Positions 10,057 to 49,856 of a stretch of DNA of 64,000 nucleotides are shown here, piece after piece. A model generated the notes under the pieces. It had not been told where the DNA came from and did not search any database. It was given only the letters and a program-made list of their open reading frames with translations. Both the position numbers and the translations under genes were made by a program. Position 1 is the stretch's first letter. Every line of letters begins with the position of its first letter. The DNA comes from Dactylosporangium siamense (GTDB lineage: Bacteria > Actinomycetota > Actinomycetes > Mycobacteriales > Micromonosporaceae), in contig NZ_BONQ01000083.1 in the NCBI RefSeq assembly GCF_016862795.1, positions 62,001-126,000 on the forward strand, written 5' to 3'.

Positions 10057-10101
10057 CTGTCTACGGTCGCGGTGCTTGCCCCAACTTTCCCCGGAGGGCT
10101 C

Positions 10102-11568
10102 ATGCCGACCCAGCGGCAGACCAGACGACGTACCCTGCTCGCCCTGCTCGCCGTGCCGGTCGTCGGCGCGGTCGCGACGACCGTCATCGTCACCACCAGC
10201 GCGGGCGCCGAACAGTCCGACACCGCCGGCCTCATCCAGGCCGAGGCGTGGAGCGGCCAGTCCGGCGCGAAGACCGAGAACACCGGCGACACCGGCGGCG
10301 GCAAGAACGTCGGCTGGCTCGCCAACGGTGACTGGATGCGCTACGACGCCATCGACCTCGGCAGCAGCGGACCCCTGACCGCCAGCGTCCGCGTCGCCGC
10401 GGCCAGCCGCGCCGGCGGCACCGTCGAGCTGCACGCCGGCTCGCAGACCGGCGAGCTGCTCGCCAGCTACCCGGTGAACTACACCGGCGGCTGGCAGACG
10501 TGGACCACCAAGACCGCCGTCAGCCCGTCTGCGCTGACCGGCCCGCAGACCGTCTTCGTCGTGCTGAAGAGCAACCAGGCCGGCGACTTCATCAACATCA
10601 ACTGGCTGCAGTTCAAGCGGACCCCGACCGCGACGATCCCCGGCTCCCCGACCGGCGGCGCCACCACCAAGGCGCCGACGGGGGCACCGACCAGCGCCCC
10701 GCCGGCCCCGCAGACCGGCTGGCCGACCGTCGACGCGGCGAAGCAGGCCGCCGACACCGCCGCGTTCTTCGCCCGCAAGCCCAAGCCGATCACCAACAAC
10801 CCGGTGAAGGTCCCCGAGTTCAACGCGCAGTGCACGGTGAGCCACCACAACAACGACGACCCGATCGTCTTCCCGGGCCTGGCCGGCGCCGCGCACAACC
10901 ACACGTTCTTCGGCAACAAGACCACCGACGCCGCCTCGACCGCCGAGAGCCTGTTCGCCGGGGCGACGACCTGCAACCCGGCCGGCGACCACTCGGCCTA
11001 CTGGATCCCGACGCTGTACCAGAACGGCAAGGTCGTCGACCCCAAGGGCGCGGTGACCATCTACTACGGGTCGCGCCTGAAGGACCCGAGCAAGACCCAG
11101 CCGTTCCCGTTCGGCCTGCGCATGATCGCCGGTGACGCGAAGACCCAGACGGACACGCCCGACAAGCAGGGCAACCACTTCTGGTGCGCGGGCATCGGCG
11201 GCTCGACCGGGCGCACCCCGGACGGCGAATACCCGGTCTGCGCACCGACGGCCGAGCTGGTCCGCCAGATCACGTTCCCCGACTGCTGGGACGGCGTGCA
11301 CCTGGACAGCCCCAACCACAAGGACCACATGGCCAACGGCGACTACACCGGCGCCTGCCCGAAGTCGCACCCGGTGCCGATCCCCTCGGTGTCCTTCGTG
11401 ATCGCGTACCCGCTGAACACCAACACGACCGGGATCACGCTCTCCTCCGGCAACGGGTATTCGATGCACGCGGACTTCTTCAACGCATGGGAGCCCGAGG
11501 AGCTGGCCCGGCGAGTCCGGGACTGCCTCGACCAGGGCTACAAGTGCAACTCGGCGGGCAACTTCTAA
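10102..11568 (+). CDS. Secreted CBM6/35-like module fused to DUF1996
   Basis: This 488-aa protein has a twin-Arg-like N-terminus (RQTRRRTLLALLAV) and a signal peptide ending near AGAEQ. A carbohydrate-binding module of the CBM6/CBM35 type spans about residues 44-165 (IQAEAWSGQSG, GWLANGDWMRYD, FININWLQFKR). A Thr/Pro linker leads to a DUF1996 domain from about 215 (CTVSHHNNDDPIVFPG, AHNHTFFGNK, HPVPIPSVSF). DUF1996 is of unknown activity and is often secreted with carbohydrate-active enzymes. GGAGG lies 6 bases before the ATG at 10102. The palindromic operator upstream suggests control by a sugar-responsive LacI repressor. The His-rich motifs could bind metal. Confidence 0.85.
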   Translation: MPTQRQTRRRTLLALLAVPVVGAVATTVIVTTSAGAEQSDTAGLIQAEAWSGQSGAKTENTGDTGGGKNVGWLANGDWMRYDAIDLGSSGPLTASVRVAAASRAGGTVELHAGSQTGELLASYPVNYTGGWQTWTTKTAVSPSALTGPQTVFVVLKSNQAGDFININWLQFKRTPTATIPGSPTGGATTKAPTGAPTSAPPAPQTGWPTVDAAKQAADTAAFFARKPKPITNNPVKVPEFNAQCTVSHHNNDDPIVFPGLAGAAHNHTFFGNKTTDAASTAESLFAGATTCNPAGDHSAYWIPTLYQNGKVVDPKGAVTIYYGSRLKDPSKTQPFPFGLRMIAGDAKTQTDTPDKQGNHFWCAGIGGSTGRTPDGEYPVCAPTAELVRQITFPDCWDGVHLDSPNHKDHMANGDYTGACPKSHPVPIPSVSFVIAYPLNTNTTGITLSSGNGYSMHADFFNAWEPEELARRVRDCLDQGYKCNSAGNF

Positions 11569-11625
11569 GGCGTGTTTGGTAAGTGGGGTCCGCCGCAGCC
11601 CGGCATCCACTTACCAAAACACGCC
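11569..11625. repeat. Stop-abutting stem, family B, short copy
   Basis: The stem begins immediately after the TAA of the DUF1996 gene: 11569-11586 pairs with 11607-11625 with one bulged base. The inner part AAGTGG...CCGCCGCAGCCCGGC..CCACTT is shared with the longer element at 40413-40579, while the outer arms differ but are self-complementary in each. It probably forms an RNA stem at the mRNA 3' end. Confidence 0.75.
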
Positions 11626-11648
11626 TCAGGTCCCCGCCGCACGATCGG

Positions 11649-39801: not shown

Positions 39802-40002
39802 ATGTCCAGACTGGTCAGACCCAGGGACAACCGTTGGATCGCCGGCGTGTGCTCCGGCCTCGCCCGCCGGTTCGGCCTGTCGCCCAACACGATGCGGCTC
39901 ATCTTCGTGCTCTCGTGCCTGCTGCCGGGGCCGCAGTTCGTGGCCTACATCGTGTTGTGGGTCCTGATGCCCGACGAGTCGAACTCCCACAGTTACAACT
40001 GA
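39802..40002 (+). CDS. PspC-domain membrane protein
   Basis: A 66-aa protein that is essentially one PspC domain: LVRPRDNRWIAGVCSGLARRF followed by a hydrophobic helix (LIFVLSCLLPGPQFVAYIVLW) and an acidic tail. PspC domains sense membrane stress. GAAGGAG precedes the ATG by 5 bases. Confidence 0.88.
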   Translation: MSRLVRPRDNRWIAGVCSGLARRFGLSPNTMRLIFVLSCLLPGPQFVAYIVLWVLMPDESNSHSYN

Positions 40003-40067
40003 GGTCGACACGGGTGCGCTCCGGGTTCACCGGTCAATCGGGGGGCCGGCCGGTCGAACTCGGAGGC

Positions 40068-40415
40068 ATGTTCAAAGACCTCACCGAAGCCACCCGCCAC
40101 AGCGCCGCCCGCTCGACCCTGAACGGGTTGATGACCTGGCTCGGCGAGTCCGGCCTGGCGGCCGCCACCACGTCCGCCGGCCTCCAGGCCGCTGTCGACC
40201 AGCACGCCGCCTCGGTCCGCGACGCCCTCGGCGACCCGGAGCGCGGACCGAACGCCGTCGCCCTGGCCAGCTACGCCACCGGCGTCCGCGACGCGCTGAT
40301 CGAGGCCCAGTGGCAGCTCCCGCCGACCTCGGAGCTCGACTGGTCGAAGGCGGAGTGGCCGACGGTCCGCCTGATCGCCATCTGCTCCCTCGCCCGCTCC
40401 GCCGGCCACCTCTAG
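40068..40415 (+). CDS. Small DUF6401-like protein, paralogue 2
   Basis: This 115-aa protein shares VDQHAASVRDALGD, ALASYATGVRDAL and W.TVRLIAICSLA with the protein at 36807-37142. The two genes lie 3.3 kb apart in the same orientation. Its stop codon TAG is the first triplet of the long family B stem. The GGAGG is only 1 base from the ATG, so the true start or a leaderless mode is uncertain. Confidence 0.68.
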   Translation: MFKDLTEATRHSAARSTLNGLMTWLGESGLAAATTSAGLQAAVDQHAASVRDALGDPERGPNAVALASYATGVRDALIEAQWQLPPTSELDWSKAEWPTVRLIAICSLARSAGHL

Positions 40416-40579
40416 GGGCTGTATCGAAGTGGGGGTCGGAGCGAGGCGAGGCTCAGGCGTCGGCTGGGGCCGCGCCGGGCGCGCCTGGATACCGGGGTTG
40501 TATCCAGGTGTGACCGGCGTGGTTCCAGGCGGCGTCTGAGTCCGCCGCAGCCCGGCCATCCACTTCGATACAGCCCCTA
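40413..40579. repeat. Stop-abutting stem, family B, long copy
   Basis: A perfect 20-bp stem, TAGGGGCTGTATCGAAGTGG (40413-40432) with 40560-40579, encloses 127 bases. Inside is a second perfect hairpin, CCTGGATAC/GTATCCAGG (near 40484-40508). The stem starts at the stop codon of the DUF6401-like gene. The segment CCGCCGCAGCCCGGC..ATCCACTT near the right arm matches the element at 11569-11625. Confidence 0.8.
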
Positions 40580-40590
40580 GCCCTGCCGCC

Positions 40591-40673
40591 GTGATCCGGA
40601 AGACACGCGAATCGCTTTCCGTGATCCGGAAGGCCTTGTGGTGTCAGAGGTGCACAAGGTCTTCCGGATCACG
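40591..40673. repeat. Palindromic repeat family A, copy 2 plus a half copy
   Basis: GTGATCCGGAAG (40621-40632) and CTTCCGGATCAC (40661-40672) are perfectly complementary; with inner CCTTGTG/CACAAGG they make a 20-position stem with one G-U and a 12-base loop. A solitary left arm (GTGATCCGGAAGA) lies at 40591-40603. The TGA stop of the MFS gene (40669-40671) is inside the right arm. It is related to 6541-6595. Confidence 0.8.
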
Positions 40674-49832: not shown

Positions 49833-49856
49833 GGGGCTGTGCCGAGGCACAGCCCC
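49833..49856 (-). terminator. Stop-abutting terminator hairpin
   Basis: GGGGCTGTGC (49833-49842) pairs with GCACAGCCCC (49847-49856). On the minus strand it starts directly at the TAG stop of the 96-aa gene (49858-49856), reading TAGGGGCTGTGC. The outer arm TAGGGGCTGT is shared with the long family B element at 40413. Confidence 0.8.

Follow-up and report, generated by a model that had tools for sequence, protein, structure and literature searches.

MITEs of bacteria are usually viewed as leftovers of a single insertion sequence (IS). Four described families come closest to the element reported here, likened to it by description and not by sequence. ERIC (RU-1) of enterobacteria, about 127 bp long, is a short palindromic MITE with TA ends and one long stem-loop, and in Yersinia the ERIC RNA hairpin regulates neighbouring genes (excerpts of PMC2229807 and PMC2267715). 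For ERIC, these excerpts describe neither mirrored hypervariable ends nor a strand-specific core nor an identified IS partner, by which our element differs. RUP of Streptococcus pneumoniae (107 bp) is likewise a MITE with TA targets, and it is probably moved by the co-resident IS630-Spn1 because its ends match that IS. It belongs to another IS family, and a conserved RNA-like core or switching ends are not described for RUP in the same excerpts (PMC2229807). The Correia/NEMIS elements of Neisseria are short, have terminal inverted repeats and TA ends, and are transcribed into hairpins for which RNase III cleavage has been proposed (PMC2229807, in excerpt); they occur in other organisms. YPAL (RU-2) of Yersinia, about 168 bp, is similar to our element in length, palindromic, not A+T-rich and found as filled and empty sites, and it might influence upstream genes. 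YPAL differs by its lack of TA termini, its target duplications of 3–26 bp and the internal position of its inverted repeats (PMC2229807, in excerpt).

The IS5-family insertion sequences of the NF033580 type share terminal repeats and a TA target with the element, which differs from them in carrying no transposase and in a core whose motifs are absent from all seven IS elements examined. A 2024 review of prokaryotic MITEs (PMC10969869) does not contain the words Actino-, Streptomyces or Mycobacterium. In the actinobacterial literature searched, mostly non-subscription sources available in part, no such element is named for Micromonosporaceae.

Here, we describe a palindromic element of Dactylosporangium (Micromonosporaceae) that was noticed in a 64-kb stretch of the D. 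siamense genome, in the following called the window. Its unusual features are hypervariable arms that mirror each other and a core that folds better on one strand through G.U, and not A.C, pairs.

Two copies of the element in the window

The window is part of a draft assembly of 12.7 Mb in 296 contigs. An initial annotation had placed stems that start at stop codons at 11569–11625 and 40413–40579, and had taken the short stem for the long one with about 110 bases removed. Both stems are present there according to sequence, fold and a covariance model, R1, which was built from 16 copies. The features are the following:

39834–40415, plus strand: DUF6401 gene upstream of the full copy; its TAG stop codon uses the TA of the insertion site
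40413–40414, no strand: left TA target-site copy, shared with the upstream gene as the first two bases of its TAG stop codon
40415–40431, plus strand: left terminal inverted repeat of 17 bp, GGGGCTGTATCGAAGTG class; the boundary at base 17 comes from the mirrored-change profile of 149 close copy pairs
40432–40560, plus strand: conserved core, a strand-specific hairpin; the plus strand of the window is the well-folding strand by MFE and R1 bits
40561–40577, minus strand: right terminal inverted repeat, the mirror of the left one, from the sequence and the mirrored-change profile
40578–40579, no strand: right TA target-site copy, from the sequence
10072–11568, plus strand: gene with CBM6 and DUF1996 upstream of the short copy; its TAA stop codon (11566–11568) uses the TA of the insertion site
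11568–11626, plus strand: internally deleted copy of 59 bp, arm class AGGCGTGTTTGGTAAGTG, from the covariance model, fold and sequence

The full copy (40415–40577; 40413–40579 with the TA on each side) is a 163-nt near-palindromic hairpin and the longest inverted repeat listed for the 64-kb window. The MFE of the whole element is −145.5 kcal/mol on the plus strand versus −106.3 kcal/mol on the minus strand. Since the full copy (L003) is among the 16 from which R1 was built, its E-value of 2.5e-31 and its scores of 152.4 bits on the plus strand and 80.6 bits on the minus strand are a match to itself by construction. The short copy, with an E-value of 0.007, is this element after loss of about 105 bp from the middle, so its initial description was right in kind. 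It is flanked by TA on the left (11566–11567) and by a decayed CA on the right, and its arm class equals the right end of an IS5-family element of the same genome (G000:C126:6145-7178).

Both window copies indeed start at a stop codon, the TAA of the CBM6/DUF1996 gene at 11566–11568 and the TAG of the DUF6401 gene at 40413–40415. The DUF6401 match (Pfam PF19939, E = 1.1e-23) reaches residue 192 of the 193 residues. In the nucleotide alignment, three of four relatives have CTCTGA where the window gene has CTCTAG.

A hairpin at 49833 had been proposed as a third relative and was rejected as a family member. With 15 bits and E = 0.32, among 33 matches up to E = 10, it scores as noise in the covariance model; it has AGGGGCTGT and ACAGCCCCT in common with the element and not the rest, and its two strands fold about equally. 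Likewise, the arms had been called gene-specific, which is wrong because both window arm classes recur in several copies at different places of the genome. A second, unrelated hairpin repeat, GTGATCCGGAAGRCCTTGTG...CACAAGGTCTTCCGGATCAC, adjoins the element at 40590–40673 and is also found elsewhere in the genome (6532–6601 and L001).

Distribution among Micromonosporaceae

By DNA similarity, the window genome contains the element at 15 places with E ≤ 1.6e-7 and at three weaker ones that have the palindrome. Five of seven Dactylosporangium genomes match in this way, the window's own included, and the copies in the other four are mostly 68–77% identical to the window copy. A search for the exact core pattern in one genome per species (84,980 species) returned 33 stretches, 19 of them from Dactylosporangium. 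Others came from Actinoplanes, Winogradskya (some partial), Paractinoplanes and Nucisporomicrobium, and five more (two Streptomyces, Catenulispora and two MAGs) showed no such palindrome by eye.

With the covariance model at E ≤ 1e-6, 138 of 300 sampled Micromonosporaceae genomes matched, the window genome included, representing 19 of 44 genera; the matches in the family number in the hundreds. Such a search of relatives had been suggested at the outset; further copies are plentiful, and chance is thus excluded. The best matches listed (about 150) all cover positions 1–162 of the model. Copy numbers per genome are lower bounds because only nine candidates per genome were scored, and the matches G004:C59, G076:C24 and G076:C27 were not fetched. 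The length of the element is 162–163 bp in 137 of 150 copies, which were partly chosen for MITE features. In a sample of 394 genomes of the class, some of them Micromonosporaceae, two matched, namely the window genome and one of another family, G316, the latter weakly (L239, E = 3.6e-8). L239 is a related-looking palindrome with quite different ends, AGAGCGTGTGTGAGATCG, and perhaps belongs to a cousin family. In genomes G001 and G006, IS5 matches are numerous and the element was not found at the thresholds applied.

Terminal repeats, IS5 partners and target sites

Arms with the sequence AGGCGTGTTTGGTAAG are identical to the ends of a complete, TA-flanked insertion sequence of 1034 bp on contig C126 of the same genome, and the right end of this IS equals the left end of the AGGCGTG-armed copies. 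Its transposase belongs to the IS5 family (NF033580, E = 1.4e-72; PF13340 and PF01609). Past the common end, the right end of the IS reads TGGGGTCAGAGC and the element reads TGGGGTCGGAGC. We searched 37 loci of this transposase family in the genus for inverted repeats with TA on both sides and obtained six further distinct IS5 elements, three of which have arm-like ends. In the window genome, a draft of 296 contigs, one arm class has an IS, and for the other arm classes used as queries no matching IS was found. In genome G103, some copies carry arms, GGGCCTGTCCTGCCGATCAA, that agree in 18 of 20 bases with the ends of an IS5 element of that genome. One set of copies there resembles the 925-bp IS5 elements of the genome in its ends, and a second set has quite different ends; the cores of the two sets differ too, being about 68% identical.

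An IS5_3 transposase (E ≤ 1e-40) was present in nine of 22 genomes with four to nine scored copies. Against expectation, it was absent in the other 13, which argues against continuing mobility in many species. In genome G004 (D. sp. AC04546), seven fragments of 77 residues from the C-terminus of an IS5 transposase were observed with equal scores on seven contigs.

Among the 150 copies, which were partly chosen for such features, 144 have arms with at most two mismatches in 16 bases. TA flanks both sides in 92 copies, one side in 39 and neither side in 19, and 107 of 114 left flanks with TA read YTAR. One copy, on C168, has unrelated arms and no TA. Clean empty CTAG sites in congeners were found for two copies, GTCTAGGG in G001 and GCTCTAGATC in G004. 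At the sites of L018, L021 and, in G001, L019, the element is missing in the relative and the TA is not clear there. In D. sucinum (L199), a 22-nt mini-hairpin lies between two TA in place of the element at the site orthologous to that of L019.

The suggestion of a mobile or self-copying 3′-end element held up, and the stems can be named more precisely: with a probability of roughly 0.8, they are non-autonomous MITEs of IS5-family transposases, with TA duplications and empty sites in relatives.

Mirrored change of the outer arms

We compared 149 pairs of copies with cores at least 97% identical. Arm sites (positions 1–18) differed at 15.0% and core sites at 1.8%, an 8-fold difference. Of 444 differing arm positions, 360 differed on both sides, 346 of these as exact mirror images; the pairs overlap, so that these counts are not independent events. 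Beyond base 17, no exactly mirrored difference occurred. The window copy and L006, for instance, agree in 97.5% of the core and in 8 of 16 arm bases on each side, and for L316 and L334, 115 of 119 core bases are identical, as are 8 of 18 bases in either arm. Copies with mixed arms exist as well (L062, L069 and L078).

The pairing of the arms is partly due to ascertainment: the early extraction accepted a copy when 12 or more of 14 arm bases matched, and the structure model supplied the later ones. In the 12 strongest plain-BLAST matches of the window genome, 13 or 14 of 14 arm bases pair throughout. Permuting the right arms within four genomes (28 copies) gave 87.5 expected mismatches against 22 observed, and none of 20,000 permutations was as low; taken singly, G002 was not significant (2838/20,000) and G004 was weak (629/20,000). 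The strand bias of the arms is mild, with 35 G.T and 15 A.C cells in 145 distinct copies. We infer an exchange of ends, after which either one arm converts the other or copies whose ends match are selected; the data fit both. In L290 (G225), the core is by eye a nearly perfect palindrome where its relatives have G.U pairs, possibly a case of arm-to-arm conversion in the core.

Insertion at stop codons

Among the 214 TA-flanked ends of the 145 copies with enough flanking sequence, 119 coincide with the stop codon of a coding-like frame. The remaining YTAR sites of these flanks served as a control, and 37 of 206 ends there were stops. On 59 copies, the count had been 46 of 89 TA ends, against 6 of 35 sites in a window control. 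Neither a lack of further copies nor a missing link to stop codons, which would have refuted the initial annotation, was thus observed. Part of the preference lies in the target TA itself, which occurs within both TAG and TAA. The target motif was rejected as the sole cause of the link because stops are less frequent at the control sites: it explains the position and only part of the excess. The loss of insertions inside genes appears to be the simplest addition that would account for the remainder. Four copies, L017, L021, L022 and L026, lie apparently in or beside coding DNA and end in CA...TG rather than TA...TA, a mirrored change of the target bases by which the stop codons are removed.

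The gene pairs around the element could be classified for 61 of 150 copies with clear flanks (84 were ambiguous and five too short). They are convergent in 29 cases, tandem in 25 and divergent in 7; the tandem cases run along the well-folding strand in 15 copies and against it in 10. A cruder earlier count on fewer copies gave 23 convergent, 30 tandem (20 along, 10 against) and 2 divergent pairs. Relative to genes, the element thus has a weak orientation preference at most, and this argues against a function in host mRNAs.

Folding of the core on one strand

The strand preference of the core was assessed on 35 copies that had been collected by similarity or by the exact pattern, with core pairing no condition for inclusion. 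Only these first copies are free of structure bias in the core because the model-found ones were chosen for structure. Copies with inserts or large deletions are not among the 35, L088 was left out as a false extraction, and the fixed extraction motifs missed at least L070 and L077. The ends of L058, L059, L065, L076 and L103 were set by hand. Left out later were L209–L211 and L218, which repeat earlier copies, and L233 at a contig end.

On the strand starting GTCGGAGCGAGG, the paired core columns of the 35 copies contain 227 G.T and 10 A.C cells, using a consensus that allows G.U, and the arms 15 and 10. With a consensus without G.U, the core counts fall to 14 G.T and 9 A.C, so the excess sits in the pairs that require G.U. 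Folded with its own consensus, the opposite strand reaches −87 versus −125 kcal/mol and has 40 G.T and 15 A.C cells in the core. All 35 copies fold better on the GTCGGAGCGAGG strand, with a mean gain of 25 kcal/mol in the core, and this preference is independent of the direction of the neighbouring genes. Of 25 further copies, 24 were also more stable on the plus strand, the exception having been oriented wrongly by the script; before L237 and L270 were oriented by their loop motif, the plus strand was lower in 24 of 25 and 149 of 150 copies. Over 145 distinct copies, the core counts are 1110 G.T and 29 A.C.

Compensatory changes point in the same direction. At least two Watson-Crick types occur at 34 of 50 core pairs (59 copies). 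Double changes were found at 35 of 69 pairs, a number reached in none of 500 partner shuffles, and in slid control structures pairing falls to 33–47%. The covariation exceeds both the shuffles and the slid controls, with the qualification that the structure comes from the same alignment and that related sequences can exceed shuffles. Recent changes comprise 51 between Watson-Crick and G.T pairs and 5 between Watson-Crick and A.C. An asymmetric internal loop is kept in most of the 16 aligned copies.

The initial annotation had argued from pairing kept despite sequence change to selection on RNA structure. This fails for the outer arms because these are transposon ends with a mild strand bias only. 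For the inner core the claim stands on other evidence, the strand-specific G.U pairing and the compensatory changes; judged from sequence comparison, it is probable that the core is kept as a structured nucleic acid on one strand, with RNA the likeliest form.

A simple pattern scan found no intrinsic terminator (G+C-rich stem plus T run) between 40350 and 40700, and a simple scan found no promoter-like site at the window copy. Rfam release 15 gave no window matches at the gathering cut-off, and a known Rfam family was accordingly rejected as the identity of the element. At E ≤ 1, six sub-threshold microRNA-like matches appeared in four of six loci; five of them were on the well-folding strand, and the sixth, in L066, was on the opposite one. 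L017, L019 and L096 carry a nested repeat, a GC-rich hairpin of about 48 nt (GGGCTGGGCCGGTCCGGCGCAGCGCGCCGG... in L017) within the core. It sits in the left half of the core in the two copies from the window genome, and in the right half in the one from D. sp. AC04546.

Discussion

We propose that the element is a passenger of about 162–163 bp, too short for a transposase gene, that would be moved by IS5-family transposases. As transposon ends, the outer arms would change whenever the element comes to match other IS5-type ends. The joint change of both ends may come about by conversion from arm to arm within the palindrome, or only copies with matching ends may keep moving. Stop codons would serve as sites through the target TA in TAG and TAA, and the duplication can restore a stop on each side; insertions elsewhere in genes would be lost, as the excess over other YTAR sites suggests. 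The core would be a separate module, a long one-strand hairpin whose G.U pairs and compensatory changes are kept across genera. Its likeliest function, as far as comparison of the copies can tell, is that of a structured RNA of the element itself in whichever orientation, which might be cut by RNase III, persist as a stabilised small RNA or block transcription. More tentatively, an old one-strand RNA hairpin module, present in 19 of 44 genera, could persist as a passenger by repeatedly swapping its 17-bp ends for those of other IS5 transposases, a scenario that we consider possible and rather doubtful. An exchange of both ends at once, with core and unit length nearly fixed and the mirrored hypervariable ends as its trace, is similarly conjectural.

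A bidirectional terminator or mRNA-stabilising hairpin, domesticated by the host and kept at gene ends for its function with mobility incidental, would account for the stop-codon excess over other YTAR sites, for the convergent pairs outnumbering the divergent ones among the clear cases and for the length and great stability of the hairpin. However, no terminator-like site was seen at the window copy, the sites are polymorphic within the genus, and the fold strand is fixed though gene orientation is not, as the 15 and 10 tandem cases demonstrate. Additionally, mirrored hypervariable ends of 17 bp are what recognition by a transposase would give. We therefore hold a host function of this kind, which the initial annotation had offered as an option, to be rather unlikely. 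Even less probable is selection on single-stranded DNA, as for IS200/IS605 or REP transposases, which read imperfect one-strand hairpins. Such selection would produce a strand-specific hairpin with a conserved asymmetric loop and a fold preference independent of host gene direction, but transposition of the IS5 (DDE) type acts on double strands, and the ends, the TA duplications and the identified partner are all of this type.

Two further explanations dispense with selection for part of the pattern. The G.T excess might stem from strand-biased mutation, such as C to T changes on the strand that transcription exposes. A skew of 51 to 5 is present among recent changes already, though these include reversions of many existing G.T pairs. 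On the other hand, the arms of the same copies show far less of this skew than the cores, wobble columns recur across genera, double changes preserve pairing, and the elements lie in both gene orientations; a purely mutational origin is thus unlikely. The covariation of the arms could also result from self-correction of the palindrome through template switching from one arm to the other, in which case matching ends would need no selection. The high share of mirrored arm differences (346 of 444) and the almost perfectly palindromic core of L290, as judged by eye, are in line with this. Yet most cores keep their G.U pairs and the asymmetric loop uncorrected, the mirrored change ends at base 17, about the length of an IS end, and copies with mixed arms exist, so that we give self-correction a chance clearly below even, albeit a better one than mutational bias.

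Under our preferred reading of a MITE moved by IS5-family transposases, one element of nearly fixed length is found in 138 of 300 sampled genomes of an antibiotic-producing actinobacterial family; its ends switch as mirrored pairs, and its core keeps its fold on one strand. This makes it testable how a passenger without genes keeps pace with transposases as they change, and whether such elements themselves function as RNA. The position of many copies at gene 3′ ends could have practical consequences for assembly, annotation and transcript ends in these species.
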